A stretch of 64,000 nt of DNA from Candidatus Poribacteria bacterium (lineage in GTDB: Bacteria > Poribacteria > WGA-4E > WGA-3G), in contig JAJEEK010000023.1 of NCBI GenBank assembly GCA_022821065.1, positions 1 through 64,000 of the forward strand, given 5' to 3'. Shown here one piece after another: positions 9,213 through 25,170 of the stretch (position 1 is the stretch's first letter; every line of letters starts with the position of its first letter). The notes beneath the pieces were generated by a model. That model did no database searches and was not told where the DNA came from. It saw nothing but the letters and a program-made list of their open reading frames with translations. Made by a program: the position numbers and the translations under genes.

Positions 9213-9345
9213 CAGAATTCTCCATCGTGAATGAACAGATTTGGCTATGTTGGCATGCTTTCCAATTGAGTTGGACGATGTATCGGTATAAGGGGGATTT
9301 TTGCTTTTTTCGCAAAGAGTATGCCAGATACAATAGCAGCTATTC

Positions 9346-9435
9346 ATCAGTTATCGGTTTTCAGTTAATGCTGGTGGCTGTTGTGCATGTTTACTAAAAC
9401 CACAAGACGCTCTTAACTGACCACTAATAACTGAT
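9346..9435. repeat. Hairpin-forming dispersed intergenic element
   Basis: Two arms, 9346-9368 and 9413-9435, are imperfect inverted repeats built from ATCAGTTAT and CAGTTAA. Related elements made of CTGATGGCTGA-like units occur at 18843-18940, 23371-23453 and 30366-30466. This one sits between the conserved palindrome element at 9451-9500 and the sigma gene. Confidence 0.6.
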
Positions 9436-9533: not shown

Positions 9534-10994
9534 TTATGCAGAATTTTCGGATTCCCATCGGAATTTTGTCTCTCGCCTGCCTCCGATGCTTTCGAGTTTC
9601 TCACTTATTTCCGTTGTTTTCTCGGTGAGAAGGACCTCGCTTCCAATCGTTTCAACATTGAGTCGTAGCAGCGGTTCTGTGTTCGATTCCCGGAGATTGA
9701 ACCGCCAACTGCCGCGCTTCGGAGCACTGGAACCTGACAGAAACCTGACGGACAACCCATCAATCGGTGCCTCAAGACACGGATTGCCCCAGTCCTGTAT
9801 TGCCTCATTGACTGCAGCGAGTGCGTCTTGTAGATGATGATGGGTCTCAAACGAGTAGTTGATCTCACCGGAGACCGGATGTGCGGTTCGCAGGCGACCC
9901 ACGGCTTCAGCGAGCGACATTTTCTTTCCACTCAGATATTCAAGCATAAGGAGAAAGGGTACCATGCCGTTATCTGCGTAGAAATTGTCTCTGAAATAGT
10001 AGTGTCCGCTCGCCTCTCCAGCAAACAGGGCATCCGTCTTTCGCATACGTGCCTTGATGAAGGAGTGCCCACACCGGTTGAGGATGGGTATGCCGTTGGC
10101 AGCGACGACAGCGTTCTCTACCGCCCAGATAGCCCTCGGATCGAAGATGACACCGCCGCCACCTTTCCGCTGCAGTAGACGTGTCGCGAGCAGTGCCGTG
10201 ATGTAGCAACCTTCGATAAACATTCCGTTCTCATCAAAGAAGAAACACCGATCGGCATCGGCATCCCATGCGACTGCCAAGTCTGCCCCTGTCTGCCGAA
10301 CGGCTTTCGTGGTGAGTTCCCGGTTCTCCGGTCGCAACGGATCCGGTCGACCTGCCGGAATTTGTGAGAAACTCCCATCCGGTTCTACAAACAGACGCTC
10401 ACATATCTGAATCGGTGTGTCCGCCAATAAGCGTTCAGCAATCTGTCCTGCGAGTCCACTATTGGCGTTGATAACAATTCGCTGCTCGCTCAGCCGTTGT
10501 AGATTTACAAACGAGTGGAGGTGGGATAAATAAGCATCCATGAACTGAATTGACCGACAGGTTCCCGGGTTTTGTCCCTTCTGTTTCTCAAATGCGGTAC
10601 CGTTTTTAACGGCATCGCGCACATCAAAAAGTCCGGTATCAGCAGAAAGCGGTGCGGCATGCTGGCGGACCAGTTTCATACCGTTATACGGAGCCGGGTT
10701 ATGAGATGCCGAGATCACAATTCCTCCATCTGTTTGGTAATGCATTACAGCGAAATAGAGCATATCCGTTGAAATTTGACCGAGATCGAGGACACCGACC
10801 CCTGAATCTTGAAAACCTGCGGCGACTTGCTGCCACAATTGTGGTGAACTCTCGCGGACATCGTGTCCCAACGCGACGGTTTTCGGTTGAAAGCAGTCGG
10901 CATACGCACACGCGATTTGGTAGAAATCCTTCGGTTCAAAGTCTACACCGAAAATGCCGCGGATATCGTAAGCCCGGAAAATTTCAAGATTCAT
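9534..10994 (-). CDS. Phosphomannomutase/phosphoglucomutase
   Basis: A 486-residue alpha-D-phosphohexomutase. It interconverts hexose 6-phosphate and 1-phosphate, giving mannose 1-phosphate for GDP-mannose. The start at 10994 (MNLEIFRAYDIRGIFG) matches the family N-terminus. The phosphoserine loop SASHNP has its Ser at about 97; the metal loop DADADR lies at about 244-249 (DGDADR is usual, so Gly is replaced by Ala); the sugar loop GEASGH is at about 326-331. A phosphate-binding RESNTEP segment lies near the C-terminus. It follows peptide gene A on the same strand with a 97-base gap, so it may be cotranscribed with the glycosyltransferase cluster and supply its sugar donor. That link is inference. 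Confidence 0.92.
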   Translation of the reverse strand: MNLEIFRAYDIRGIFGVDFEPKDFYQIACAYADCFQPKTVALGHDVRESSPQLWQQVAAGFQDSGVGVLDLGQISTDMLYFAVMHYQTDGGIVISASHNPAPYNGMKLVRQHAAPLSADTGLFDVRDAVKNGTAFEKQKGQNPGTCRSIQFMDAYLSHLHSFVNLQRLSEQRIVINANSGLAGQIAERLLADTPIQICERLFVEPDGSFSQIPAGRPDPLRPENRELTTKAVRQTGADLAVAWDADADRCFFFDENGMFIEGCYITALLATRLLQRKGGGGVIFDPRAIWAVENAVVAANGIPILNRCGHSFIKARMRKTDALFAGEASGHYYFRDNFYADNGMVPFLLMLEYLSGKKMSLAEAVGRLRTAHPVSGEINYSFETHHHLQDALAAVNEAIQDWGNPCLEAPIDGLSVRFLSGSSAPKRGSWRFNLRESNTEPLLRLNVETIGSEVLLTEKTTEISEKLESIGGRRETKFRWESENSA

Positions 10995-11091
10995 TAGGAA
11001 CTCTATTTTGGTAATGGCGGTTCCTTGTCGGAGACAGGAGAACCGCCGTAAATCGGCTATCAATAAATTAACAAATTCTTAGATAGCCTAA

Positions 11092-11361
11092 TTAAGAATC
11101 AATTGATTCGCATCGACTGTACCAGGTCCCTACACAGGTGCCTAAATGCCACTCATTACACCAAATGGCACAGTTTTCACCCTCTGAGCAGTCATCATTT
11201 GAATAACAGTCCCAACTGGCGTGGGCGGAGGGTGAGACCATTGCGTGTGCGAGCAACAAACTCGCGCTTGCCGCACCCAATGCCAATGGCGATTTAACAC
11301 CAACATATCCCTCTTCAGATGTGAGGAAGTCGCTGATTCTACTGCGGATGTTATTTTTCAT
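11092..11361 (-). CDS. Six-cysteine secreted peptide A with conserved FLxSEEG leader
   Basis: An 89-residue putative precursor. Residues 1-20 are a basic leader ending FLTSEEGYV. Residues 24-48 are hydrophobic and end in the signal-peptidase-like site PSAHA/S. The 41-residue core has six Cys in a pattern shared with peptide C: C, DDC, GENC, WC, GTCVG, C. The leader is very similar in peptides B and C, while the cores differ strongly. That is the usual profile of a modified-peptide precursor or a secreted knottin-like product. The ATG is within the ATGA that ends a glycosyltransferase relic, and AGAAAGGAGA serves as its ribosome-binding site. Maturation by the RRE-glycosyltransferases is inference. 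Confidence 0.8.
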   Translation of the reverse strand: MKNNIRSRISDFLTSEEGYVGVKSPLALGAASASLLLAHAMVSPSAHASWDCYSNDDCSEGENCAIWCNEWHLGTCVGTWYSRCESIDS

Positions 11362-11580
11362 CTATGGGTTTCTCCTTTCTGCCGGTGCTCTTCTCCAGCG
11401 AGATTAGTTTCCACAAAAAGACTGTTAGGAAACCCATTTTCAGCGCGAGTTGCCTCGCAAGTAGGTGTAGAGCTGCCCCGCCGAAAATGTTTAAAAACTG
11501 ATCCAACTCAGAGTATTGAATTCCAGTCCAGAAACCTTGCTATTGGCAGGGCGTTCAACTTGCACATAATAACTGATTCG
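11362..11580 (-). pseudogene. 3' relic of an RRE-glycosyltransferase upstream of peptide A
   Basis: Read on the minus strand, the last 45 or so codons before peptide A give SVFKHFRRG...NGFPNS...ETNLAGEEHRQKGETHR and a TGA overlapping the peptide ATG. This aligns with the C-terminus of the intact gene 21638-23356 (SVFKHFQRE...GDGFPNN...ETNPAGQEHQQKGETYR). Immediately upstream, one base is missing relative to the intact copy, which puts a TGA in frame, and similarity fades beyond about 11580. I read this as the decayed end of a third glycosyltransferase gene. The part that carries the peptide's ribosome-binding site and ATGA overlap remains intact. Confidence 0.8.
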
Positions 11581-11695
11581 CTCGGAATTTATGAATATCT
11601 ACCAAAATCGTTAGTGAGGCTTTTATGTCCGATGCCACGTCTCAACATCCAGTTGAGCAAGTACTAGTATTGCTTCAATATTGAGTTTATGATCG

Positions 11696-11728
11696 GTAGG
11701 TTGGGTTGAGCATCAGCGAAACCCAACA
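11696..11728. repeat. Dispersed GTAGGTTGGGTTGA/AACCCAACA repeat
   Basis: A short inverted repeat pairing GTTGGGTT with AACCCAAC. The same unit recurs at 55981-56012 and as the ends of a 230-base element at 61838-62067. The rest of 11581-11822 shows no gene. Confidence 0.6.
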
Positions 11729-11822
11729 TCTTCAGGCATTTTTCATGGAATCCTAAGACCAACTCTCAAACTTAACATTGAACGACTACTAGTGGTAGGA
11801 ATAATATGAATAGCAGCCCAGT

Positions 11823-13487
11823 CTATAGTATCAAACCGGAAAGTTTCTCTAAAATGTGGCATGCCTTTTCTCTGTCACCATTGTATATTTCAGTTAGAAG
11901 CATCTCAGTCTGTAGGCGTGTATGAGATTCAAGAAACTCTTTGGCGAGCGCGACCTCAATACTTTCTGAGGAAGCGTGTGGATGCTGAAGTGCTTGAGAT
12001 CGTACACTCCCATAATTGCTGTCATAATTATAGCAAAACAGACTTCGACGAGAATTATGAGTAGATTTAGACTGCGTCTCAAGCTGCCGCTGCGTTAATG
12101 AGTGCATAAGGTTAACAAATTGCAATGAAACGACATCAGCAGAAAAATTTTCCGCCAATTTCCGTCCTTCTGTGGAAAGTCGCTCCATCTCTCGGGAATC
12201 TACTAATAACTGCTTCAAATCTTCAAGAACACGCTTCAAGTGTTCGCGGTCCGTAATCCCTTTTTTTAAATCTATAAAAGCACAAGCGTTTTCAAACTCA
12301 GGTATAGCATTAGCGGTTCCTATAAGCGTGGGCATGCCACAAGCTAAACTCTGAAACAATAGCGAGCTGGAACTTTGTAAGGTCGCGTGGAAGAAGCAAA
12401 TATCTATGCCGTTTAGTAGCATCGGGAGCAAATGTGGATCTGTCCCAAATTGTTCGGTTTCCGTAAAAAAAACAAGATTATTGGGCAGATTATTCAAATA
12501 CAGGTCGGGTAACCCAGCGGCAAATACAAGAAAAAAGAGTTCTGGACACAATTCTGCTACGAATTTCCCAACACGATAATTGACTTCGGACACTTCTCCA
12601 GCGATGATGCCAACAACAAGTTTTTGAAAGACCTCTTGCGTGTCAAAAATAGCGTTTATGCACCGCTTTCCTATCATCTTGTCTTCATACGGTTGAAACC
12701 TTTCGAGATCGACTGGATCAGGGATAACACAAAAATCAACCTCAGATGACAATATTTCTTGAAAGCGAGGGATTAGCCAAGGTGCATCAACGACGATGGC
12801 ATCAAACGGACGCTTCGCTCCATATACAGCCAAAACGAAATTTATAAAAGCCTCCTCGTTTTTAACGCCACTGTGGACGCGTACAATCGTGGGAACGTTA
12901 TTCCAAGAAAAAAAAGGTATAACTTCGTTCATCTCTACAGATAAAAGGCCAAAATCGACAGGGGCGAATGCCATTGTTACATCATAGGTTGCGTTTATGT
13001 AATATGTTCTCGCGCGTTTAAGATCCGTTTCTATTGGCATAAAGTGAAAAACTTTATCGTCGCGATAGGATTCACTCCATTGATCTTTCGGAAGCCCAAC
13101 GGTAACCTCCATATGCCGCGAAAGGGATTCTAAAAGCAGGTAGTTACTCCCATTCTCGGGCTGTGCAGTCGGTATTTGACTTAGGAACGTCAAGAGACGT
13201 AATTTTCGGTTCTCATCCGGCACGCGACGGACTGTGTTTGACACAAGTAGACCCAATTCCGCAAACTGTCTTATGCACTCAAACGCTTCAAAGATTTCCG
13301 CCTCGGTATGTTGTTCTTTTAGTTGACGGATGATCTCTTCTCGACTGCTTGAACGGCACAATTCCAATACATTCCAGACAACAAGATCGACACATACCAA
13401 TTCATTTCGATCTAAGTCAACAACGTAGTTTCGATTGTCAATTTGAAATTTTTCTATTTCATGAAGTGTTACAGGAAAATCTATCAT
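11823..13487 (-). CDS. RRE-domain glycosyltransferase-like protein 1, catalytically degenerate
   Basis: A 554-residue protein with three parts. Residues 1-85 are a PqqD/RRE-like winged-helix domain (NYVVDLDRNELVCVD, then EEIIRQL and a helix pair ending in ELGLLV). A GT-B fold related to family GT4 spans about 100-430. A C-terminal helical region with FLESHTRLQTEML resembles the same region in its relatives. The GT4 EX7E motif is gone: the aligned segment reads LQSSSSLLFQSLACGMP, lacking both Glu residues. It lies 23 bases downstream of the intact paralogue 13511-15229. I infer a non-catalytic partner or substrate-binding subunit, though a changed active site is possible. The RRE assignment is by resemblance to the N-termini of SPASM peptide maturases. 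Confidence 0.75.
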   Translation of the reverse strand: MIDFPVTLHEIEKFQIDNRNYVVDLDRNELVCVDLVVWNVLELCRSSSREEIIRQLKEQHTEAEIFEAFECIRQFAELGLLVSNTVRRVPDENRKLRLLTFLSQIPTAQPENGSNYLLLESLSRHMEVTVGLPKDQWSESYRDDKVFHFMPIETDLKRARTYYINATYDVTMAFAPVDFGLLSVEMNEVIPFFSWNNVPTIVRVHSGVKNEEAFINFVLAVYGAKRPFDAIVVDAPWLIPRFQEILSSEVDFCVIPDPVDLERFQPYEDKMIGKRCINAIFDTQEVFQKLVVGIIAGEVSEVNYRVGKFVAELCPELFFLVFAAGLPDLYLNNLPNNLVFFTETEQFGTDPHLLPMLLNGIDICFFHATLQSSSSLLFQSLACGMPTLIGTANAIPEFENACAFIDLKKGITDREHLKRVLEDLKQLLVDSREMERLSTEGRKLAENFSADVVSLQFVNLMHSLTQRQLETQSKSTHNSRRSLFCYNYDSNYGSVRSQALQHPHASSESIEVALAKEFLESHTRLQTEMLLTEIYNGDREKACHILEKLSGLIL

Positions 13488-13510
13488 AATTATTAGTCTT
13501 TCATCAGGTT

Positions 13511-15229
13511 CTATAAAGATGTTGCCTGTGCAAATCCGTTGACACGATTGAGAATATCAGCTACCGAGTATTTGTCTTTCACGATGTGCATAAGCACTGT
13601 CTCAACTTCATGAACCGTGTGACGTTCCAATAAAGTTAGAGCCAATGCCGCCTTCCAATCTTGGTAGTAACTGGTGTGCATCAACGGCTGTTGGTTCTGT
13701 TGTTCAGTGACGTTTGTCAAAATGGACTGGCACTGCAACCGGTTGTCTAAAGAATCATAGGAAGGCACAAATGAAGTTTTGAAACGCGTTCTTGAAGCAA
13801 ACTGCTTTTTTCTTTTTAGGTTTTCGTAGAGCATAACAAGTTTCTTTGCTGTTGTATCCCATTTAAATTCCAACGCTCGTTCGCGAGCCCGTTTACCGAG
13901 TTCTATTCGACAGGCATCGTCATTCAAAAGTTCCTGAATCGCTTTTGAAAGCATTTCGGGTTCAACATACCCGGCGAAACTGCCGATGTCCTGCCCGAAA
14001 GTCTGACAGACGACAACGCGACCAGCCTCACTGACCACTTCGGGCAGACCCGCGAAGTTTGTTACGACTGGTGGCACCCCACAAGCCATTGCCTCAAGAA
14101 CAGCATTGCCAAAAGCCTCTTCTCCAACGATAGAAGGGAAGCAGTGAACATCAAAAGTATTTAAATACAATGGAAGCATCTCTCTTGGCGGTTGCTCGCC
14201 GATATAAATCAAATTCTGTGGTAACTTCTGGAGCTGATACGCATGTAAAGTAGGGGCGACCACAAAAAATAGGACATCTGGAAGCATTTTGGCTATTTTG
14301 ATAAAGATACCCGCGCCTTTTTCAGGTTGGAACCGCCCAAAAAAACCGACGATCTTCTTATCTCTTATCTTTGGTCGATTGAGCATTTCTGCTACTTGAG
14401 ATCGCGCCTGTGCTTTATCCATCGAAGAAAAAAGATCTGAATCAACGCCGTTGGGGATGACACGAAAACAGTCTGCATCAAGAACATGTTGCGCGTAGAA
14501 ATCTTTGATAGAGCGAGTTGGCGTTATGAAAGCGTCATGTTCGTTCATTGCAGCATAAGTCCATAGGATAGAATCAATCATTGACCCGCCGTGTCCACGG
14601 GGTGAGCCGAGCCGGCTTATCACGGGAACTCCCGATGAAAATAGATGCAGTGGCATCTGTTCCACCATGTCCAACGGGATCATGGGCATGAAAATCCCAT
14701 CAATTTGGTTTTGCTGAAGTTGAAATAAGAAGTTATGTCTTGAGGTGCCTCCGGAAATGGTGTAAACCCCGTCTGAAACGACCTCTGATTTTGAGGCATG
14801 GAAAAAAAGATCTGCATACTTGGAGAGTGCGCTCAAAATTTCTTTAGATGCGAGACGGTATCCGCTCCGAACGTATGTTTTATCTGATGTCCACGTTTCA
14901 ATAGGGCCTGCGACGAAGATTCTGAGGCGGTTTTTCTTTTTAAGAATTTCTCGCCCTGTATTTCCAACAAGAAGCCCCATTTCCTCAAAGCTACGTAACT
15001 GTTCAAAGGCTTGATAAATGAGAGTAGACTCATACCTTTCAGATAGAGTTTCGAGAATTTTGTCCTGCGTTGATTCTGGACACAGTTGTAATATCTCCCA
15101 AATGAGATTGTCAGTTTCTAATATCTGTCCTATGTCTAAGTCAACAATGAAAAACCTATCCTCCCGCGTAAAGTGATGCAAACGATGAATCGGTTTTGGA
15201 CACTGAAATAAAGGTTGTTTCAAAGTCAT
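13511..15229 (-). CDS. RRE-domain glycosyltransferase 2 (GT4-like, EX7E intact)
   Basis: A 572-residue protein. The N-terminal 90 residues form a PqqD/RRE-like domain (RFFIVDLDIGQILETD, then helices ending EEMGLLV). The GT-B part has PRGHGG at about 210, IPNGVDSDLF at about 258-267, GRFQPEKG at about 298-305 and EEAFGNAVLEAMACG. The EX7E pair is Glu371/Glu379. The last 50 residues contain LLERHTVHEVETVLMHI, a helical segment conserved across the four paralogues. ATG is preceded by GGAAGAAAATT. It lies between a TolB-like gene (20-base gap) and its degenerate partner 11823-13487. GT4 enzymes transfer nucleotide-sugar-donated sugars with retention. A peptide acceptor is inferred from the fused RRE and the adjacent peptide genes. 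Confidence 0.85.
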   Translation of the reverse strand: MTLKQPLFQCPKPIHRLHHFTREDRFFIVDLDIGQILETDNLIWEILQLCPESTQDKILETLSERYESTLIYQAFEQLRSFEEMGLLVGNTGREILKKKNRLRIFVAGPIETWTSDKTYVRSGYRLASKEILSALSKYADLFFHASKSEVVSDGVYTISGGTSRHNFLFQLQQNQIDGIFMPMIPLDMVEQMPLHLFSSGVPVISRLGSPRGHGGSMIDSILWTYAAMNEHDAFITPTRSIKDFYAQHVLDADCFRVIPNGVDSDLFSSMDKAQARSQVAEMLNRPKIRDKKIVGFFGRFQPEKGAGIFIKIAKMLPDVLFFVVAPTLHAYQLQKLPQNLIYIGEQPPREMLPLYLNTFDVHCFPSIVGEEAFGNAVLEAMACGVPPVVTNFAGLPEVVSEAGRVVVCQTFGQDIGSFAGYVEPEMLSKAIQELLNDDACRIELGKRARERALEFKWDTTAKKLVMLYENLKRKKQFASRTRFKTSFVPSYDSLDNRLQCQSILTNVTEQQNQQPLMHTSYYQDWKAALALTLLERHTVHEVETVLMHIVKDKYSVADILNRVNGFAQATSL

Positions 15230-15249
15230 AATTTTCTTCCGCTAGATAC

Positions 15250-16413
15250 TTAATCTACTCTTTGTTTGAGTTTTCCCCAGAGTGTTGTTTGCTTCTCCGG
15301 ACTCGGTGAAACAGAGAGAAACCCGTCTGGCACCCACGCTGGCGAGAGATCTTGTCCCACACCCTCTACAAGCGGTTTTCCGGGTCCGTTGCCCTCAGTG
15401 TCTATAATATAAATGTCAGCCGTTTGCCAGAGGACCGTATCTGAATAAAAATAGGCAATCCACTTGCCATCCGGCGACCAGACGGGGGAACCAATCCACG
15501 GAAGCGGATCAATCAGCAGGGGAAAGGCTGGTTCCTTCACAGGTTCACGTTTCTCTAATATCCTTTCTCCCACTATAGGACCGCCTCGGGTGAGTTGGTG
15601 AAAGTTTTTGCCATCTACATCAATCACACACAAATGATCTCGCTGGACTTGAGGGACGTGGAGACTAAAAGCAATCTGCTTGCCATCTGGCGACCAGGCA
15701 CATTCACTTTGGAATACACCTTTCATCGCTTGGATATTGCCGTCAGGTACCCGTTTCAACCTTTTCCCATCAGCATTCATTACATAGAGACTGGACCTCG
15801 TACCCGCCTTGCTGGAGAAAAAAGCGATCTGTTTGCTATCAGGAGACCACGCTGGGCGTCCGTGGTAACCTCCAGGGTCTGTCAATTGGAACACGTGTGT
15901 GCCATTGACATCTGTTTTGTAGATGTGGTTACTTTTTTTCCCTTGTAGCATTTCTTCGGGACTCTGGGAAACAAAGGCAATCCATCTACCATCAGGAGAC
16001 CACGCTGGGGCCCATTCACTCTTGTGGTGGTGTATGAGCCGCCGGTGTTCCTTCGTCCGTGTGTCCATGACATAAATCTTGAAATCTCCGTCTCGCTTGG
16101 AAACGTAAGCCAAGAAACGCCCATCTGGTGACCATGTATGAGCAGGCACCCATGACGGAACCCAGGTCCCAAACTCGTCTATCGGATGGTTCGTCACGTT
16201 GCGGAGGTGTTCACCATTGATGTCCATGACATAGATATCAAAGTTGCCCGTTCGATTGGAAGCAAAAGAGATTCGTTTACTTCCAGCAGCGTCTACCCGA
16301 TTGACTATGGACAGCAGACCACCCCCTATAAAGAGTACCACGGCTAATACTGTATAATATACAAGCCTGCCCTTCATGAAGAAGAGATAAGGCTCAATCC
16401 TTCTCCATCTCAT
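15250..16413 (-). CDS. Secreted TolB-like beta-propeller 1
   Basis: A 387-residue protein. The start at 16413 is preferred because AAAGGTGG lies 5 nt upstream; a GTG three codons earlier is in frame. A membrane or signal segment at about 13-33 is followed by TolB/WD40-like blades with WSPDGRxIAF and IYVMD motifs recurring about every 45-50 residues, six or seven in all. The tail (SPSPEKQTTLW) is nearly identical to that of the paralogue 20214-21302. It follows peptide gene B by 74 bases on the same strand; the paralogue likewise follows peptide C. This conserved order suggests a role with the exported peptides, such as binding or display, which is inference. Confidence 0.85.
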   Translation of the reverse strand: MRWRRIEPYLFFMKGRLVYYTVLAVVLFIGGGLLSIVNRVDAAGSKRISFASNRTGNFDIYVMDINGEHLRNVTNHPIDEFGTWVPSWVPAHTWSPDGRFLAYVSKRDGDFKIYVMDTRTKEHRRLIHHHKSEWAPAWSPDGRWIAFVSQSPEEMLQGKKSNHIYKTDVNGTHVFQLTDPGGYHGRPAWSPDSKQIAFFSSKAGTRSSLYVMNADGKRLKRVPDGNIQAMKGVFQSECAWSPDGKQIAFSLHVPQVQRDHLCVIDVDGKNFHQLTRGGPIVGERILEKREPVKEPAFPLLIDPLPWIGSPVWSPDGKWIAYFYSDTVLWQTADIYIIDTEGNGPGKPLVEGVGQDLSPAWVPDGFLSVSPSPEKQTTLWGKLKQRVD

Positions 16414-16487
16414 AGTGTCCACCTTTCAACGTTTTTGAAAAGTCGGTTCTACTGTGAAAAACAGCAGAACCGACAATAGTAGAATAA

Positions 16488-16787
16488 TTAATTATTGAGA
16501 TCGACACACGTGTAGTGTACGTTGCTAAGACGCACCCAGCACCCCTTTACACCCGGAATGAGCTCGCAGTCGGGAGACCATTCCCACCAGAACCCTATGC
16601 AGACTTGATCATCATCGCAAGGAGGGCAATCATGATGTCCATGCGCCTGCGCGGAAGAGGGGAGCATTGCTTGTGCTAACAACAAACTCCCGCCTGCGAT
16701 ACCTACTGTGAGGGGTGCCTTGGCACCTACACGCCCTTCCTCAGATGCGAGGAAGTCACGGAATTTATTCCGAAGGTTGTTTTTCAT
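16488..16787 (-). CDS. Six-cysteine secreted peptide B with conserved FLxSEEG leader
   Basis: A 99-residue putative precursor. Its leader (FRDFLASEEGRVGAK), hydrophobic segment and export site (SSAQA/H) match peptides A and C. The core also has six Cys but different spacing: DC, PPC, QVC, PDC, KGC, YTC. It is rich in His, Asp and Trp and lacks the GTCVG motif. AAAGGAGATG precedes the ATG. The upstream sequence is a glycosyltransferase 3' relic, and the downstream gene is TolB-like propeller 1. Conserved leader plus variable core supports one family with different mature products; the final structure and function are unknown. Confidence 0.8.
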   Translation of the reverse strand: MKNNLRNKFRDFLASEEGRVGAKAPLTVGIAGGSLLLAQAMLPSSAQAHGHHDCPPCDDDQVCIGFWWEWSPDCELIPGVKGCWVRLSNVHYTCVDLNN

Positions 16788-16793
16788 ATCGGT

Positions 16794-16934
16794 TCATCTC
16801 CTTTCTGCCGGTGCTTCTGTTCCGGCAAGATTGATTTCCGAAGAATCGGGAAATCCATTTTCAGGTCGAATCGCTTCGCTTCCGGAGTGAAGTCTCCCCC
16901 TGGACATGCTCTCTAATGGCTTTTCGATCTGAAA
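16794..16934 (-). pseudogene. 3' relic of an RRE-glycosyltransferase upstream of peptide B
   Basis: The minus strand encodes RPENGFPDSSEINLAGTEAP and then ERR with a TGA at 16794-16796, 6 bases before the peptide ATG. This corresponds to the C-terminal AxNGFPN...ETNLAG segment of the intact glycosyltransferase 21638-23356 and of the relic before peptide A. Only about 140 bases survive, cut by the stop codon of the cytochrome gene at 16935. It is best explained as the leftover end of a glycosyltransferase gene once coupled to peptide B. Confidence 0.7.
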
Positions 16935-18797
16935 TTACTGGCACGGTGTCCCACTTGCCCTTAACAACTGAGTCGTTTGAAATTTATGTCCATCGACTAA
17001 AATTGTCGGAGAGGCTCTGATGCCGAGTTCTGCGGCGCTCGTGATATTTTCTCTGAAGAGCTGCTCTGCCGCGGGACTGTCAAATAATCTTTGAATCTTT
17101 GCCACGTCAATACCGAGTTTCTGCGCGCACGCCTCCCAGCTTTTGTCGAGTTTCTTGCCGCGGCAGAGAATATAGTCGAGATACTGATCGGGATACTCCT
17201 GCGCTATGAGGAGCTGCCGTATATTTTCTGCGACTTCGGGGTAGCCGTGGAGACTCATAAACGGTGTTATATCTTGCACGGAAGGTTCCTCTTTCTCTTG
17301 GGCAATAAACTGAAATTTGAAGTCGATTTTGTCGCCAAATTCCTTGACGATCGGAATAAGTTTTTCTTCCGCCTGAACGCCATAGGGGCAATAACTCATC
17401 ACAAAGAGTTCGAGCGTCGGCTTTCCTGTCCGTGCTGCGCGGGCGGTCAAGAGTTCCTCCAAGTTCATCGGTTGACGGCTGTGATCGACATCCTTGGTAT
17501 GGAGTGCGACTACCTCATCGAATCCGGGTGAATGTTTGGTGTCGTGGCATTGTAAACAGAGCGATGTGTCTGCGCCGCTACGGATATTGCTCTTTTTCGG
17601 GTTGCCGACGTGCTGCTTACCGGGACCGTGACACGTTTCACACTGTACACCTTCGAGTGTTGCGTTTTGGTCTCCGATCTGGAAACCTGTTGGATACCCG
17701 AAACCGGTGGTATGGCAGGAGACACACCCCGCGTCGAAGTATCGCTCCTTTTTCAGGAGTGTTTGATAGGCGAAGGCGTGGCGCGTTGCTGACCATTGGA
17801 GATATTCCTGCTCATGGCATTGCTGGCACGCCCCCGCTGAGGCATACCCATTTTCCTGTTGTCGCTCTAAAAGTTGCTTGGCAAAAAGTCGTGAATCGTG
17901 CGACGGGTTTTCAGTCGCAACATCTCTATAAAAGTCTGTAAGCAGTTGACGGATCGGTTCAGATTCACCGACTTCTCCTGTCAATGCCAAGTCCGTTGTA
18001 TAATGGCGTGCCAACTCCCCGTTTGAGTCCATCCAAAGTGCCAACACGCCCAAGGTTTTGCCTTCAGGTGGACAACCGACGTGAAGCGTTCCATCCTCAG
18101 ACACTGTTGCCTCAATCTCATCGGGACGGATAACGACATCAATGTGTGCGGCGTTTTCAGGATCGCCCAAAGCCACAATAACGTTTGCTTGTGATATGAC
18201 TTCCTCGCTCGCCTCACTTACGACAAAACCGATAGTATGTTGCCCCGCTTTTTCAATAATGAACGGCTGCGTGAAATCGCCGCGCCCCGTATTCGATGCT
18301 AAGAATGGGAACGTCGCGACAGCGCGTTGTCGGCTGAGATAGGCTTCGTCATAAGCGAGATCCGATGCCCTGAGTGCGACGGCGTGGTATTGCATTGTGG
18401 ACATCGCCTTCAGGTTGACTTCGCATCGCTTCGCATCAATTTCCTCTTTCCCATCAAAGATATTGCCGGCATCCACTAAAAGTGTGGGGAATCCACGCTT
18501 CCGGATTTGGTCTACAACATGCGCGCGTCTTGGGAGTCCACCAGATTGTTCCTGATAGCACCCGCACGGCTCCAGATGGCTCTGCGTGCCGCCGGTATAC
18601 AGGACAACCACAGAGGGCGGTTTGCCGGTTTCAAGTTCTGAAAGCACCGTTTCCAACTGATCTCCGAAAACTGTTCGTGCTTGTTGTTTCATTTCTTGTA
18701 TCTGGTTGATTCTCCGAGACTCCGTCCATTGGGAGTAAAGGGGCGGTAACGTTACTGCCACCGTTAAAAGCACTAAAATTAAGACTGCACGTTTCAT
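16935..18797 (-). CDS. Dead UshA-like phosphatase / tetraheme cytochrome c / DsbA-like fusion
   Basis: A 620-residue exported protein (signal or anchor at 1-20). Residues 60-280 resemble the SoxB/UshA metallophosphatase fold (HLEPCGC, GGLPRRA, VDAGNIFDG). The usual metal ligands are lost: DAGD reads DAGN and the GNHE region reads RASD. Four CXXCH heme sites follow at about 324, 358, 386 and 414 (CQQCH, CVSCH, CETCH, CLQCH). The C-terminal 160 residues are thioredoxin/DsbA-like with CPYG at about 470 and the cis-proline SPTILVDG. The active site keeps only one Cys. Predicted periplasmic redox protein. It lies between the A24 peptidase and the relic before peptide B. A role in disulfide chemistry of the Cys-rich peptides is possible but unproven. 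Confidence 0.85.
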   Translation of the reverse strand: MKRAVLILVLLTVAVTLPPLYSQWTESRRINQIQEMKQQARTVFGDQLETVLSELETGKPPSVVVLYTGGTQSHLEPCGCYQEQSGGLPRRAHVVDQIRKRGFPTLLVDAGNIFDGKEEIDAKRCEVNLKAMSTMQYHAVALRASDLAYDEAYLSRQRAVATFPFLASNTGRGDFTQPFIIEKAGQHTIGFVVSEASEEVISQANVIVALGDPENAAHIDVVIRPDEIEATVSEDGTLHVGCPPEGKTLGVLALWMDSNGELARHYTTDLALTGEVGESEPIRQLLTDFYRDVATENPSHDSRLFAKQLLERQQENGYASAGACQQCHEQEYLQWSATRHAFAYQTLLKKERYFDAGCVSCHTTGFGYPTGFQIGDQNATLEGVQCETCHGPGKQHVGNPKKSNIRSGADTSLCLQCHDTKHSPGFDEVVALHTKDVDHSRQPMNLEELLTARAARTGKPTLELFVMSYCPYGVQAEEKLIPIVKEFGDKIDFKFQFIAQEKEEPSVQDITPFMSLHGYPEVAENIRQLLIAQEYPDQYLDYILCRGKKLDKSWEACAQKLGIDVAKIQRLFDSPAAEQLFRENITSAAELGIRASPTILVDGHKFQTTQLLRASGTPCQ

Positions 18798-18842
18798 AGA
18801 GACAAATTAAATCAAAATCTGTTGATTTGTAATCCTTTCGTG

Positions 18843-18940
18843 TGTAAAGAATGGCTATCGGCTTTCAGTAATCAGCAAAGAAGCGTTTGATTTAATCAGA
18901 AACCTCTTTTACTGACGGCTGATGGCTGATGGCTGACGGC
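18843..18940. repeat. Hairpin-forming dispersed intergenic element
   Basis: Opposed clusters of GGCTATCGGCTTTCAG and ACTGACGGCTGATGGCTGA units flank a spacer containing AACCTCTTTT. They can fold into a long hairpin in the gap between the cytochrome and A24 genes. Same family as 9346-9435, 23371-23453 and 30366-30466. Confidence 0.6.
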
Positions 18941-18944
18941 AAAA

Positions 18945-20081
18945 TTAAAATAGCTGCATGAGTTTCAGGTAAAAGGGGCCTTGGCAGATAACTGTCAGAA
19001 GTGCCCCGATGGAAATCACCGGTGCGAAGCGGATAGAGGGTTGAATCCTTATCTGATTCTCAAATTCCGCAAGTGCACCCCTTGCCGCAAGATGCTGCAA
19101 TTGTGCGATGTCTTCCGCGTCAAGACCCGCTGGATCTGGTGAAACGATGACGTTGTCGTCCCAACCGCTTGAAAATCCGACCTGCTTTCTTTCATACCGG
19201 ACAGAGCCATCGGGTTGCGGCACCCGAATAATCTGCTCGGCAGGAATCATGCCGACTTGGAGCCCGTTCACGTCAACGGCATTGTCAAATGTTATGCTTG
19301 CTAAACCGAGCACCAACTGCTTGGCAATCACAAAAACGACGAGGTATAGTCCTAAGAAAAAGGCGAAACCGGAGAGGAATGCTGGCACAGATGGAGCCGA
19401 CTGCACCGAGAGCCATACACACGCGAACCCAATAATCGCATAATAGACTGGCGTTTTCGGAATCGGCGACAGCAACTTCTGAACCAAAGCGAACGCTCCT
19501 AAAACCAGAACCAGGCGCAGAAACTGGTCGGGCTGCCACCCAATCAGTTCAAAAAGAAATGTCAGTGCGGTTCCGATACCGATGAAAAACAGCAGGTTGA
19601 AAAGTTTTTCGAGAAGTGCTGCCTTCTGGAAGTTTGCGGTAAAGAACGCTTGAAGGAGTGCCAGCTTGTTTTGCATCAATACAAACTTGAAAAGCAGGTA
19701 TCCGAACATTCCTACTGAATACGGAATGATGATATTCAGCGTGAGTATCAGCGGTGGGAAACTCAAACTTCCACTCAGATTCCTGAAAAGTGATAGCGGG
19801 AAAATGAGGCACAGCCCCCAAAAGAGTTTGGAATCCCCCGGTGAGAAGATACCGAACCAATAGAACGCGAAGGCGATGAGTCCGCTCCCGAAGAAAAGTG
19901 CTAAGATATAGAGCGGCGTTGTTGTACCGAGATACCACGCCATCAGTTGACTCAGCGTCCCGCCGTAAAGGAGTCCGAGCGAACAGAAGTTGCGAATCTT
20001 TTGCGTTTTCAGGTCGGTATAACACGCATAACCGCAAAAAATAAGTGCTAAAAAAATAAGAAAGTATTCATAAACCGACAT
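18945..20081 (-). CDS. A24-type prepilin peptidase-like membrane protein
   Basis: A 378-residue polytopic protein. The catalytic Asp pair of A24 aspartyl proteases is visible: YTDLKTQKI (Asp23) and SPGDSKLFW (Asp83). The usual GGGD is altered to SPGD but the Asp remains. Several membrane helices cover about 1-250. A soluble stretch of about 95 residues (containing VGMIPAEQI) precedes a last helix near 355, so it is longer than a minimal CpaA/TadV peptidase. AAAGG lies upstream of ATG. No pilus genes are visible in the window. The three peptide precursors next to it have an EEG motif just before a hydrophobic segment, which loosely recalls Flp prepilins. Processing of these peptides is a hypothesis. 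Confidence 0.8.
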   Translation of the reverse strand: MSVYEYFLIFLALIFCGYACYTDLKTQKIRNFCSLGLLYGGTLSQLMAWYLGTTTPLYILALFFGSGLIAFAFYWFGIFSPGDSKLFWGLCLIFPLSLFRNLSGSLSFPPLILTLNIIIPYSVGMFGYLLFKFVLMQNKLALLQAFFTANFQKAALLEKLFNLLFFIGIGTALTFLFELIGWQPDQFLRLVLVLGAFALVQKLLSPIPKTPVYYAIIGFACVWLSVQSAPSVPAFLSGFAFFLGLYLVVFVIAKQLVLGLASITFDNAVDVNGLQVGMIPAEQIIRVPQPDGSVRYERKQVGFSSGWDDNVIVSPDPAGLDAEDIAQLQHLAARGALAEFENQIRIQPSIRFAPVISIGALLTVICQGPFYLKLMQLF

Positions 20082-20213
20082 TCTAAAATAAAAACCTTTC
20101 GTTTATCGGACGCGATGGTATTGGGTTGGGTGTGGATACAGATTCGGACGGGTTCCAAGGCGTGATTCAAGTGTCTTTTCAAAATCAGTATATGGCATTC
20201 AGATATTTTCCAT

Positions 20214-21302
20214 TTACTTCTCAGGTTGTTTAAGTCTACTCCATAATGTGGTCTGCTTTTCCGAACTCGGAGTTACAGAGAAAAACCCTTCTGGTAACCA
20301 CACAGGAGACAGATTAAATGACAACTTTTTTGTTAGCGGTAAACGTTTTCCTCTACCCTCATCCATGGAGTTTATGATACAGATGACACTGATGCCATGA
20401 ACGACAGGGAAAATAACCTTTCGACCTGCTTGAATTTTAGCGTTAGGTAGGGGTAACTCCCCCAAAACATAGGCGATCCAATGCCCATCGAGAGACCACA
20501 CTGGTCGATAAGCCAATGGCATTACCCGTGGAAAAGGGGGGCCTCTCCACGTCTCACTTGTCAGACGATGGTGGTTTTTTCCATTTGCATCAATTATGAA
20601 AATGTTCACTGCTTTTAACTCAATATCCCAAGCAGAAAAAGCGATCTGCTTTCCATCAGGCGACCACGTACATCCCCCCCACTTGAAAGACGCATCTGCC
20701 AATCGTTTTAATCGCCTTCCATCGGCAGTCATTACAAATAGAGATTCCTTTCCATTTTGAGAGGAAATAAAGGCGATCCATTGACTATCAGGTGACCAAG
20801 CAGGCGCTTTATTATCTCCTCGATGTGTCAACTGCCTTAGTTTTTCGCCATTTACATCCATTTTGTAAATCTGGGTGTTCCCTGTGCGATTAGAGGTGAA
20901 AGCAATCCATTTTCCATCAAAACACCAGACAGGTGACCCATCTTTGCTCGGATTATGTGTCAATCGGCGATGTTCATGTCTTTTTACACCCATCACATAA
21001 ATGTCAGTATTTCCATCATTATTGGACTCGTAAGCAAAAAAACGCCCATCTGGCGACCAGGTAAGGGAACTTTTGTTCAATGTATCAGTTGGGACGCGAC
21101 GGAGGATTTCGCCCATGATATCCAGGAAATAGATGTCGAAGTTCCCTCTATGGTCAGAAAAAAAGGAAAGGACAGACCGCTCAGCTGCTTGTAAATTTGT
21201 GACAGGAAAATTGCTAATTAGCAACAAAATGAGCCCTAACACCTTATATGTAAACTTCCGCTTTATCAAAGAGGAACAACTCCCAGCAGCTATAAATTTC
21301 AT
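20214..21302 (-). CDS. Secreted TolB-like beta-propeller 2
   Basis: A 362-residue paralogue of 15250-16413. A signal peptide at about 1-39 ends near LQAAE. TolB-like blades follow with motifs such as SDHRGNFDIYF, WSPDGRFFAY, WSPDSQWIAF and WSPDGKQIAF, and the conserved tail SSEKQTTLW closes the protein. The start has AGGAG upstream. It lies 63 bases after peptide gene C on the same strand, mirroring peptide B and propeller 1. TolB-like propellers bind proteins or peptides in the periplasm; the partner here is unknown. Confidence 0.85.
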   Translation of the reverse strand: MKFIAAGSCSSLIKRKFTYKVLGLILLLISNFPVTNLQAAERSVLSFFSDHRGNFDIYFLDIMGEILRRVPTDTLNKSSLTWSPDGRFFAYESNNDGNTDIYVMGVKRHEHRRLTHNPSKDGSPVWCFDGKWIAFTSNRTGNTQIYKMDVNGEKLRQLTHRGDNKAPAWSPDSQWIAFISSQNGKESLFVMTADGRRLKRLADASFKWGGCTWSPDGKQIAFSAWDIELKAVNIFIIDANGKNHHRLTSETWRGPPFPRVMPLAYRPVWSLDGHWIAYVLGELPLPNAKIQAGRKVIFPVVHGISVICIINSMDEGRGKRLPLTKKLSFNLSPVWLPEGFFSVTPSSEKQTTLWSRLKQPEK

Positions 21303-21365
21303 TGGAATTCTCCTAATAAAGTCTGTCCCACTATAAGAAACAGCAGGACAGACGGAATGGATGAA

Positions 21366-21641
21366 TTAAAAATGACCAGCGTCCACACAATCCTTGTGAA
21401 GGACACCTACACAAGTGCCTACACTCCACACACCATCACACCATTCTGCGCAGACTTCCCCATCAGGGCAGTCATCATGATCATCACACATTAAATGGGC
21501 ATTAGCAGGAGATGGGATCATCGCCTGTGCTAACAGAACACTTCCCGTTGCTACACCCAGGGCGAGGGGTGCTTTGGTACTGACACGTCCCTCTTCAGAT
21601 GTGAGGAAGCTGCTGATTTTACTGCGGATGTTTTTCTTCAT
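21366..21641 (-). CDS. Six-cysteine secreted peptide C with conserved FLxSEEG leader
   Basis: A 91-residue putative precursor. The leader contains KISSFLTSEEGRVSTKAP, the hydrophobic stretch ends IPSPANA/H, and the core has six Cys arranged C, DDC, GEVC, WC, GTCVG, C, as in peptide A. The gene is coupled to the upstream glycosyltransferase by an ATGA overlap at 21638-21641, with AGAAAGGAGA inside the glycosyltransferase end as ribosome-binding site. This is the only one of the three cassettes with an intact upstream transferase. The core pattern resembles dickkopf/EB-like DDCPxGxxC modules, so a three-disulfide fold is likely; function is not known. Confidence 0.82.
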   Translation of the reverse strand: MKKNIRSKISSFLTSEEGRVSTKAPLALGVATGSVLLAQAMIPSPANAHLMCDDHDDCPDGEVCAEWCDGVWSVGTCVGVLHKDCVDAGHF

Positions 21642-23356
21642 CTATAGGTTTCTCCTTTCTGCTGGTGCTCTTGCCCAGCGGGATTGGTTTCCCTATTATT
21701 GTTAGGAAACCCATCTCCAGCACGAGTTATCTCGCAAACGGGAATAGAGCACTCCCGCTGAAAATGCTTGAAAACCGATTCAACTTCAGCAGGTGTATGC
21801 CCTTCAGCCAATACCTCTGCCAAAGCGGTCTCAAGGTGGTCATATCTGTTCGTCCCTAACCGATACACGCTGGACCTTAGCGTTCCTGTGTCGGGTTCAT
21901 ACCGGCGACAGAAAATCGGTGGGAACAGCGTTCGTTCTGTTCTAAAATCGTCTGTCCTTCGTTGAAAACCTTCCTCAAATACTTGGATGAGTGCTTGTGC
22001 AGCGTTTTTTCGGGTATATCGCTGGGCGATCCCTTTCGCGAAACCTTGGCATTGAGTGCGTGCGTCGGAAGGTTGTAGCCACTGGTTTATCGTCTCTGAG
22101 AGTTTCACCATCGACATACGGAAATTGCCGAAGTGATCCCAGTCTGCCTCTACATTGACCCCGGCACCGATAACCTCTGGTGGCATCCCATATTTCGTCA
22201 TCGCGACACAAGGGGCACCGAACGCCATCGCCTCTAAGACGATCGGGAGCGGGGTGCCCGGCATCGCGGGAAAGCACACAAGGTCGAGAGCCTGAAAGAA
22301 TACGGGTAAAACGGCACGGGTTTCCTCACCATCGGCATTGAAGATGATGACATTCTTCGGCGGATGTTGGTAGTGCTGCGCTAACATTGCATCGTAGACG
22401 AAGATAGCGAGGTGCGGGTTAGTTCGAGCGAATTCAGAAATCCACGCCGCACCTCGATTCGGTTCAAACCCAGAGATTAGCCCAACAACTGGTTGCTTAA
22501 CAAACATCGGTTTGTCAAAGATGGCGGCGGTGTGCTGTTTTGCTAATACCTTATCGCCGGTTGGTTGAACGATATCTATACCGTCGGGGATCACTCGCAC
22601 GTTCTCCACGGGCGCGCCCAATTCAGCGAGCCACGCTTTCATCCATGAGGCTTTGACGACGAGTGTATCTTTTGAACGTTGGAACGCACAGAGCGTTAGG
22701 AGCGTCCTTAGCAAAATGTGTTGCAGCCTCTGGTCCCCTTCTATGCAGTGGACGATTGGGACATCGGGAATCCGATAGTATGGCAGATCGTCCGTGAGGA
22801 ATTGTGAAAGGAGCAGGATACCATCGTATCCATCCATGGCGTACCAAGGGGACATCAGGGTGCCACTTTTCGCACCACTTATGTTCCGCACGCGAACCTC
22901 GTCGAGAGGCGGAATGTCTTCTTTCTCCTCTTCAGGAAAAGCTAAAGTTTCTAACTCGGCGAACTCGGCGAGGTGCTTCAAGGACTGATAGCGGTTGAGA
23001 TTCGTGACGTAGTCTAACGCCAATTTCTCCTTGGTGAAATGGAAGGGGACCAATAACTTGGGCTGTTGGTTTGGTGTCGTTGGCTCTGCTGTTTCAACTG
23101 TTGGGGTTAGAAGCCCGCCCTGCTGTCCAAGTCGTTCCAGACGTTCAATGCCATCAAAAATAGCGGTTAGTTTGTATTCTTTCTTGAGTGCCTCTACGAT
23201 CTGATGGTGCGTCTGCGATTCGTAACGCGACAGAATCTCCCATTCTACGTCATTTATTTTAACGATGTCGCCGGTTTCAAGGTCCGCGACATACTTTTGA
23301 TCATCTTGTTCAAATTTATGATGCTGTTTTAATCGGTAGCGCGTGCGAGATACCAT
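21638..23356 (-). CDS. RRE-domain glycosyltransferase-like protein 3, EX7E partly lost
   Basis: A 572-residue protein. Residues 1-85 form the PqqD/RRE-like domain (KYVADLETGDIVKINDVEWE, then helices ending LGQQGGLL). The GT-B region includes VRVIPDGID at about 254 and a segment equivalent to EX7E reading GTPLPIVLEAMAFG. The second Glu is kept and the first is lost. The C-terminus extends beyond its relatives by about 30 residues (to QKGETYR), and that extension carries the ribosome-binding site of peptide C. Strong AAAGGAGG before ATG. It is the downstream partner of the intact enzyme 23455-25170, repeating the intact/degenerate pairing seen at 11.8-15.2 kb. I infer weak or no catalysis and a role as partner subunit. 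Confidence 0.78.
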   Translation of the reverse strand: MVSRTRYRLKQHHKFEQDDQKYVADLETGDIVKINDVEWEILSRYESQTHHQIVEALKKEYKLTAIFDGIERLERLGQQGGLLTPTVETAEPTTPNQQPKLLVPFHFTKEKLALDYVTNLNRYQSLKHLAEFAELETLAFPEEEKEDIPPLDEVRVRNISGAKSGTLMSPWYAMDGYDGILLLSQFLTDDLPYYRIPDVPIVHCIEGDQRLQHILLRTLLTLCAFQRSKDTLVVKASWMKAWLAELGAPVENVRVIPDGIDIVQPTGDKVLAKQHTAAIFDKPMFVKQPVVGLISGFEPNRGAAWISEFARTNPHLAIFVYDAMLAQHYQHPPKNVIIFNADGEETRAVLPVFFQALDLVCFPAMPGTPLPIVLEAMAFGAPCVAMTKYGMPPEVIGAGVNVEADWDHFGNFRMSMVKLSETINQWLQPSDARTQCQGFAKGIAQRYTRKNAAQALIQVFEEGFQRRTDDFRTERTLFPPIFCRRYEPDTGTLRSSVYRLGTNRYDHLETALAEVLAEGHTPAEVESVFKHFQRECSIPVCEITRAGDGFPNNNRETNPAGQEHQQKGETYR

Positions 23357-23370
23357 AATTTTCCTCCTTT

Positions 23371-23453
23371 AATGGCTATCGGCTGTCAGCCGTCGGCTTT
23401 CAGCAAGAGAACCTCTTTGCTGATGGCTGACAGCCGATGGCTGATGGCTATTA
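23371..23453. repeat. Hairpin-forming dispersed intergenic element
   Basis: ATGGCTATCGGCTGTCAGC on the left pairs with GCTGACAGCCGATGGCTG on the right across a spacer with the small hairpin AAGAGAACCTCTTT. It fills the gap between the two glycosyltransferase genes. Family members occur at 9346-9435, 18843-18940 and 30366-30466, with a fragment at 45814-45843. Confidence 0.65.
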
Positions 23454-23454
23454 A

Positions 23455-25170
23455 TTAGGCTGTTCCATCGATTAAGCCTCGGACCCTTTTGAGGGTTATC
23501 CTTGCTTGCGTTTCGTCTGGAATGAGCGCGGCGAGAAGTGCCTCCGCTTCTCTCGTTGTATGGTTTTTCAAGATACTCAGTGCGACTCCATCTTCAACGC
23601 TGAGTGGATATACTGCATCCCGCATGAGGCACCGCTCGTAATGTGCATTCATACTCAACACGAGCGACTTGTGTTTCAGTCGCTGCTGTTCATCGTCTTC
23701 CGAGGGTTGCGTCGATGTGAACACATTCAAGAGTCTGTGCGGGTTAGCGAGTTTCCTTTTCTGGTGAAGCCCTTCAAATAACTGAACAATCCGGCGTGCC
23801 GTCTTATCCCAAGTGAATGCGACCGCGCGTTTCCTCGCTCTCTGCGAAAACTCCCGCCACGTTTCTGCGTCGTCCAACAGTATGTTAATCTTCTCGGAGA
23901 AATCCACCGGACACGGATAACTCACGAGTGTTGCTACATCGTGATCAAAATTCTGGGCATCGGCGACCAAGCCGGCATCCCCGACGACTGATGGCACACC
24001 ATCGAAGTTCGGGACGATAGGCGGTACCCCACACGCCATCGCTTCCAGCACTGTCAACCCGAATGTTTCTTCACCCGACATTGACATAAAACAGTAGACA
24101 TCGAATGCGTTGTAGATGAGTGGTAACCGCTCACGTGGATGGAAACCGACATAGACGAGATTATCAGGGAGTTTCCGTGAGGCATACCTGCCCATATTCG
24201 GTCCTGCGATCAGAAAGATCAGATGCGGATTCAGTTCCGCCAACTTCAAGTAGACAGACGCGCCTTTTTCCGACTGCACCCGCGAAAGATAACCGACGGT
24301 CGGGACAGATTCAATTCGGTCATCTCCGACTTCTGCAGCGATTTCTCGTTTCGCTACCATTTTCTCCATGGGCTTAAACAGCGTGGCATCGACCCCGTTC
24401 GGCAAGGTATTGAAGAAACTTGGATCCCAGACGTACTCTGAATAAAAGTCGCGGACATAATCTGAGGGTGCTGTAAATCCGTCCCAATCTCGCATAGCGG
24501 CATAGTGTCTGAGCATCGAATTGATCGCCTGCCCACCGTGCCCGCGCGGTGCGTGATTCTGAACGAGAATCGGCGGAAATTCGGGGTGCCGGTAGAGTGG
24601 AAGGAGCCACCGATCCTGCTCTTGATGTAAGGTTAGGATGCCGTAGTAGGTCTGCGCGATTTGCGACCGAAGGCGGACCAGGTCTCCAATGCCAATATCG
24701 ATTTCATATACTCCGTCCGCGATCTTCCGGTTTCGGGAACCCGTAAAGTGGAGATCGGCGTATTTGGTGAGATGTTGAATCATGTGAGCAAGTGCCATGT
24801 TCGTGCCGGCGGACAACGTTTCGATATCGAAAAACGAATCTACATTGATGCCGGGGATCGCGACGAGCAGCTTCCGCCACTTACTCTCCGTCGCGAGACT
24901 CCGTTCTAAGTCCTCACCGCGGTTGAATAGTAAACCTTCTCTCTCAAGTTCGGCGAATCTTTCAAATGCCTCGGAGATGTCGTTCTCTTCGTAAGAAGTG
25001 CTGAGCGTTTCGACGATTGCATCATCGGTTTGCGTTTCTGCGAGTTTTAGGATGTCCATCATCACAGCTGAGAGTTCGACGACGCGCGCTTTGTCGAGGT
25101 CGGCGGCATAGGGGACACCCTCTTCTTCAAAGAGATGAAGTTGGTGCAATATTTTCGGAAAACCAATCAA
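23455..25170 (-). CDS. RRE-domain glycosyltransferase 4 (GT4-like, EX7E intact)
   Basis: A 571-residue protein and the first gene of the minus-strand cluster. It starts with TTG; the start is supported by alignment of IGFPKILHQLHLF with paralogue 1 and by GGAAAGG upstream. Residues 1-83 are the PqqD/RRE-like domain. The GT-B part carries PRGHGG at about 208, LPNGVDATLF at about 256, SRVQSEKG at about 296 and GEETFGLTVLEAMACG with Glu368/Glu376 as the EX7E pair. The C-terminal LKNHTTREAEALLAAL helix is shared with the paralogues. Transcription probably begins at the left arm of the inverted repeat 25212-25268. Peptide glycosylation is inferred from domain fusion and neighbours. Confidence 0.85.
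   Translation of the reverse strand: MIGFPKILHQLHLFEEEGVPYAADLDKARVVELSAVMMDILKLAETQTDDAIVETLSTSYEENDISEAFERFAELEREGLLFNRGEDLERSLATESKWRKLLVAIPGINVDSFFDIETLSAGTNMALAHMIQHLTKYADLHFTGSRNRKIADGVYEIDIGIGDLVRLRSQIAQTYYGILTLHQEQDRWLLPLYRHPEFPPILVQNHAPRGHGGQAINSMLRHYAAMRDWDGFTAPSDYVRDFYSEYVWDPSFFNTLPNGVDATLFKPMEKMVAKREIAAEVGDDRIESVPTVGYLSRVQSEKGASVYLKLAELNPHLIFLIAGPNMGRYASRKLPDNLVYVGFHPRERLPLIYNAFDVYCFMSMSGEETFGLTVLEAMACGVPPIVPNFDGVPSVVGDAGLVADAQNFDHDVATLVSYPCPVDFSEKINILLDDAETWREFSQRARKRAVAFTWDKTARRIVQLFEGLHQKRKLANPHRLLNVFTSTQPSEDDEQQRLKHKSLVLSMNAHYERCLMRDAVYPLSVEDGVALSILKNHTTREAEALLAALIPDETQARITLKRVRGLIDGTA

Follow-up and report, generated by a model that had tools for sequence, protein, structure and literature searches.

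A poribacterial operon predicted to encode glycosylated, cysteine-rich secreted peptides

Introduction

We analyzed a 64,000-nucleotide stretch of DNA (the window) from Candidatus Poribacteria, part of a 91,240-base contig in a draft genome of 5.14 Mb that is 90% complete. It carries genes which we read as an operon for cysteine-rich peptides that would be glycosylated by a pair of GT4 glycosyltransferases (GTs) bearing recognition elements (RREs) of the kind found in the enzymes of ribosomally synthesized and post-translationally modified peptides (RiPPs), trimmed by a FlaK-like protease, and finished by Sec, signal peptidase I and DsbA. We put the probability of this reading at roughly one half. 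At the level of sequence it draws on a common leader family followed by AxA-like sites, RRE-like domains, pairs of one motif-bearing and one degenerate GT, an A24 protease with both aspartates, and an operon that recurs.

An initial annotation, made from the window alone, had described three such peptide genes among four GT genes; all seven are present, on the minus strand, at the coordinates given below. Its interpretation stood in part: RRE-like domains, GT4 sequences with a GT-B fold, a leader family and co-occurrence of leader and RRE were all found, while the ideas of four working transferases and of the leader's SEEG motif as mainly an RRE site were not supported in that form. The system is also larger than was described, since the A24/FlaK-like protease, the DsbA protein and the sugar-phosphate and regulatory genes had been missed.

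Results

Precursor peptides with a conserved leader

The peptide genes encode proteins of 91 (21366..21641), 99 (16488..16787) and 89 (11092..11361) amino acids, each a leader plus a six-cysteine core; the start of the first gene and the stop of the GT gene upstream of it overlap by 4 bases. Identity to this first peptide is 52% for 16488-16787 and 56% for 11092-11361. As initially described, all three share a leader with the motif FLxSEEG, a hydrophobic segment and an AxA site. The family is large and variable: a single-sequence search with one window peptide gave 157 homologues at E <= 1, and a search with an alignment gave 474 clusters (90% identity) at E <= 0.01 (120 listed in each case). 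Among the matches listed, the named homologues are from Candidatus Poribacteria. In a diverse alignment of 30 peptides the invariant columns, E16, G18 and V20, all fall within the leader, and three cysteines are nearly invariant.

For a wider count we screened 176 open frames and 120 database proteins; 284 passed a motif regular expression, giving 228 unique peptides. Since the expression requires E at position -2, G at position 0 and K/R at position +5, percentages at those positions are true by construction. The core holds four or six cysteines in 199 of the 228, an even number in 207 and none in 3. Six, the number in each window peptide and the one initially taken to define the cores, is merely the commonest family-wide (129; four in 70). 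An AxA-like site, defined by a permissive pattern, follows the hydrophobic segment in 223. Even cysteine numbers and AxA-like sites therefore argue for disulfides and secretion. S-glycosylation of one cysteine as the usual fate was considered and set aside because of the even numbers, and no single acceptor residue is evident in the 228 peptides. A conserved leader and variable core, encoded beside RRE-bearing enzymes, is the arrangement expected of a RiPP precursor.

Some further peptides lie around this family. Model NF038309 (HxsA3, of His-Xaa-Ser systems) is weakly similar to 13 of 22 leaders, with a best E of 0.0016; a window leader scored 15.2 bits against the model's curated cut-off of 65, and a remote link to the HxsA3 leader family is possible. 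Two loci with RRE-GT pairs encode peptides with the same leader type, no cysteine and a very short hydrophobic core (L061, 12383-12583 and 12691-12897; L054, 1678-1896), possibly a second product type. Divergent leaders of the FFVKEDGHVAHKNAL and LLLSECGDVPRKNAL types occur at L055 15910-16149, L058 10827-11108, L082 18969-19247 and L060 6091-9270; they sit in the same kind of loci, which suggests that the leader family is wider.

An RRE-like domain at the GT N-terminus

The GT genes form two pairs. In transcription order, pair A consists of 23455..25170 and 21638..23356, with RRE-like parts at about 24913-25167 and 23096-23353, and pair B of 13511..15229 and 11823..13487, with RRE-like parts at about 14951-15211 and 13227-13487. 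A profile of the N-terminus, built from 18 of 116 GTs that a greedy cut at 65% identity selected as representatives, matched the RRE region of CteB over residues 3-81 with an E-value of 1.1e-15, while the next match among 177,635 PDB sequences came only at E 0.084. The N-termini of all four GTs are thus RRE-like, as had been proposed. The accompanying assignment to PqqD could not have rested on Pfam, since the PqqD model reached no significance on the window proteins, its matches to two of the four GTs having E-values of 0.07 and 0.12. Maturase models came closer: NCBIfam NF040492 (ScfB-like maturase) matches all four N-termini (E 2.8e-7 to 2.6e-3), with scores that fall far short of the cut-off set for the whole protein, and at E <= 0.1 the 18 representatives were matched by the SCIFF maturase model (18), the ScfB-like model (17) and PqqD (11, best E 3.8e-4).

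In an AlphaFold2 model of 13511..15229 (mean pLDDT, the predicted local distance difference test score, 86), residues 17-83 form three strands and then three helices. This is the order given for an RRE in the accessible text of PMC12710340; that of PMC7470986 describes helices followed by a sheet. A structure search with the whole GT returned a match list filled by the GT-B domain, from which the RRE region was absent. Strand and helix order in the AlphaFold2 model hinted at a further RRE-like domain near the C-terminus of the GT, which profile-profile comparison did not support (probability 1.8%). Elsewhere in the window's own genome, a 164-residue frame carries a separate PqqD-family match above the Pfam cut-off (L001, G000:C42:14153-14338).

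GT pairs with one degenerate member

Structure searches and Pfam both support the GT4 domain and GT-B fold of the initial annotation. The Pfam GT4 match is clear on 13511-15229 (E 6.3e-23) and 23455-25170 (E 1.3e-22) and just over the cut-off on 21638-23356 (4.4e-6), and 11823-13487 has no Pfam GT domain at E <= 1. Taken in coordinate order, the last three GT sequences are 22-24% identical to the first. The Pfam matches of the four do not include PF00535 (GT2, SunS-type).

We then compared 41 loci from 33 genomes, the window and 40 fetched loci; the latter were picked for peptide or RRE matches and several share a genome. They contain 30 adjacent, same-strand RRE-GT pairs, both members of each carrying the RRE-like domain. 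Using regular expressions written after viewing the alignment, we scored RGHxG, R-EKG and EX7E, which we take to be GT4 motifs. All three are present in the first GT in 25 of the 30 pairs and two in the other 5, whereas the second GT has none in any pair and was classed as GT4-like rather than as an enzyme. Two of the four window GTs, 21638..23356 and 11823..13487, are accordingly likely pseudo-enzymes, at odds with four working transferases.

A FlaK-like protease beside the peptides

The gene at 18945..20081 (minus strand, like the other operon genes below) encodes a membrane protease that family profile and fold place in the FlaK-like A24 family, and which we predict to be the leader peptidase. 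Its profile had no match among PDB sequences, and plain Foldseek with the model returned nothing at E <= 0.001; a second structure aligner alone ranked FlaK first. Both aspartate motifs, TD (T22 D23) and GD (G82 D83), are invariant in an alignment of 18 of the 35 A24 proteins. A search of GTDB genomes with the A24 alignment, scanned as two sequence patterns that may miss more distant relatives, placed 50 of 52 A24 loci in Poribacteria and 2 in archaea.

Such a protease, adjoining the peptides, would also suit pilin-like subunits, an account that we consider improbable: A24 would remove the first 18 residues, the hydrophobic helix would stay, and the cysteine-rich head, perhaps glycosylated, would be displayed at the surface. 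The spacing of F, E and G ahead of the hydrophobic segment resembles that of Flp prepilins, and it had led us to suspect a Flp pilin leader. Neither pilin profiles nor PDB matches supported this: 22 leaders had no Pfam pilin match, no pilin was among the two PDB matches, and Flp_Fap gave one sub-threshold match in 84 genomes, on a separate protein. Class III signals keep their hydrophobic part on the mature protein, according to the accessible text of PMC4858521, but the segment here ends in the AxA-like site noted above. Nor do the recurrent neighbors that were annotated include a pilus ATPase or platform protein, rarer neighbors being annotated in part.

A recurrent operon

Across the 41 loci, peptides occur in 40, the A24 protease in 32, RRE-GTs in 29, a TolB-like (PD40) propeller in 27, an UshA/cytochrome c554/DsbA protein in 25, an ECF (extracytoplasmic function) sigma factor joined to a propeller in 25 and a phosphomannomutase in 22, with a SAM (S-adenosylmethionine) methyltransferase (13) and a nucleotidyltransferase (11) less frequent. 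Since the loci were picked for peptides or RREs, only the other families give independent support for an operon. The recurrent operon is composed of two RRE-GTs, peptide, TolB-like propeller, A24 protease and UshA/cytochrome/DsbA protein.

In the window, domain matches identify an UshA-like/cytochrome c554/DsbA-like protein at 16935..18797, with a predicted role in disulfide formation. TolB-like propellers adjoin two peptide genes (20214..21302 and 15250..16422), and such a gene directly follows the peptide gene in 43 of 86 cases. A phosphomannomutase/phosphoglucomutase, predicted to supply the sugar donor, is encoded at 9534..11063, and a predicted regulator, an ECF sigma factor fused to a propeller-type (BNR) region, at 6240..9347. 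No MNIO (multinuclear non-heme iron-dependent oxidative) enzyme appears among the annotated recurrent neighbors, though no search aimed at MNIO was made. A second ECF sigma and extracytoplasmic-type propeller protein lies away from the cluster at 47898-50774. Elsewhere in the same genome, one contig holds peptide, A24, DsbA, nucleotidyltransferase and mutase genes together (L062, G000:C109), and another has an RRE-GT pair with an ECF-sigma/propeller gene at its end (L063, G000:C62).

Both window TolB-like proteins end in TTWGxLK right before the stop, as do proteins throughout this genome. The DNA pattern occurs 76 times in it, against once for a reversed control, and in all 20 fetched cases it closed an open reading frame; a loose form is found on 34 of 61 TolB-like proteins of the loci. 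This tag looks like an undescribed sorting signal, and we found no literature report of a C-terminal sorting signal in Poribacteria.

Co-occurrence and RRE-free loci

Of 84 Poribacteria genomes, 40 match the leader profile, 36 the RRE profile and 38 A24, at thresholds that vary by search (E 0.01, 0.001 and 1e-10); the RRE counts are profile matches, taken without a match-by-match check of the GT domain. For one genome, G082, 15 of 20 peptides, 12 of 14 RREs and 7 of 7 A24 proteins were among the matches listed. An RRE match is present in 33 of the 40 leader genomes vs 3 of the 44 others (33 both, 7 leader only, 3 RRE only, 41 neither), so the leader does not occur mostly apart from such enzymes. 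A24 follows a similar course (35 both, 5 leader only, 3 A24 only, 41 neither). Kinship was handled by a within-genus table alone: the 38 genomes of one genus divide into 26 with leader and RRE, 2 with leader only, 1 with RRE only and 9 with neither.

The seven leader genomes lacking an RRE match weigh against our reading. We inspected five of them, all but G050 and G059. In four (G033, G042, G044 and G045) the genes for peptide, propeller, A24 and DsbA share a single locus, SEEGKVGVK is intact and there is no RRE match genome-wide; in the fifth, G038, leader peptides and a propeller lie on a 6-kb contig. The RRE is therefore probably not the sole reader of the leader, and the view of SEEG as chiefly an RRE site is not supported; protease and RRE may both make use of the leader. 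Mutase, nucleotidyltransferase and methyltransferase genes are each absent from the five RRE-free loci, whereas 22, 11 and 13, respectively, of the remaining 36 loci have them. This suggests a core system of leader, A24, DsbA and propeller to which glycosylation was joined as a module.

A different explanation is that the peptides are ordinary secreted cysteine-rich proteins whose signal peptide is unusual, and that the RRE-GTs modify another target, e.g. a surface glycan or lipid. In its favor, genomes lacking an RRE match retain the leader, the type of core, A24 and DsbA, and the proteins whose folds best match the GT domain act on small molecules or glycans. We doubt this explanation nonetheless, because both members of each GT pair have the RRE-like domain, an RRE-GT directly precedes the peptide gene in 21 of 86 cases, one with the 4-base overlap, and leader and RRE co-occur even within one genus.

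Discussion

A proposed maturation pathway

Under the glycosylation reading, the RRE-GT4 pair would bind the peptide through the leader, the two GTs acting as one complex, and transfer sugar to the core in the cytoplasm, from a donor supplied by the mutase and nucleotidyltransferase. The FlaK-like protease would then cut the leader after the Gly of SEEG, Sec export and signal peptidase I are predicted to follow, and the DsbA-type protein would form the disulfides, completing a secreted glycopeptide. More speculatively, the propeller beside many peptide genes might be the peptides' extracytoplasmic partner and the ECF-sigma/propeller protein a regulator.

We tentatively go further and suggest, at somewhat less than even odds, a new class of RiPP whose archaellin-type leader would serve at once as enzyme handle and export lock, with a catalytic/dead RRE-GT4 pair, a FlaK-type cut and hand-over to Sec and DsbA. 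If true, it would give one uncultured phylum hypervariable, secreted, disulfide-rich glycopeptides. The known RRE enzymes would be joined by a glycosylating pair that includes its own degenerate partner, and archaellin-type proteases would gain a part in maturing peptides.

Comparison with known systems

The closest match of the RRE-like domain, CteB, is a SCIFF/ranthipeptide maturase that also works on cysteine-rich peptides; it is a radical SAM enzyme with thioether chemistry, unlike the enzymes here. Glycocins such as sublancin are glycosylated disulfide peptides, like the proposed product, but are made by GT2 enzymes that are not known to carry an RRE and have double-glycine leaders and ABC export.

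The initial annotation knew of no described system combining RRE-GT4 fusions with this leader family. RRE-GT fusions as such were already predicted from sequence by RRE-Finder in 2020 (PMC7470986) and again in 2025 (PMC12710340), where the GT named is PF00535 (GT2). The main text of these papers, as available to us, contains no GT4 pairs, A24 protease or Poribacteria, and neither this leader nor this operon. No title or abstract start in our literature search, which left most subscription papers outside, describes such a system, and the search found nothing linking a prepilin peptidase with RiPP leader peptides. The main text of a 2023 review of RiPP leader proteases has no prepilin, aspartyl, aspartic, signal peptidase or A24 (PMC10885120). 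Sponge papers describe Poribacteria as sponge-associated, and their passages on the phylum, as accessible, name no such peptide system.

The remaining comparisons draw on the accessible parts of the papers cited. Archaeal FlaK and EppA are likewise A24 membrane proteases that target a basic N-terminal leader followed by a hydrophobic segment, but their substrates are archaellins and pilins (PMC4858521). GtfA/GtfB of serine-rich repeat adhesins also form a two-protein transferase that glycosylates in the cytoplasm before Sec-type export, GtfB being the acceptor-binding chaperone; they differ in acting on Gram-positive adhesins, in having DUF1975 in place of an RRE and in using accessory Sec (PMC6973325). 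By analogy, the second RRE-GT may serve the acceptor as GtfB does. Bufferins and other MNIO RiPPs share cysteine-rich precursors with Sec signal peptides and an RRE-type domain in a partner protein, but rely on MNIO chemistry, and their leader is the signal peptide, whereas here an 18-residue part precedes it (PMC12452194). Few RiPP precursors carry a Sec signal, and how their export is delayed until they have been modified is an open question (PMC12452194); the operon suggests an answer in a removable leader in front of the signal peptide. Its parts are of known kinds, and their combination appears to be new.
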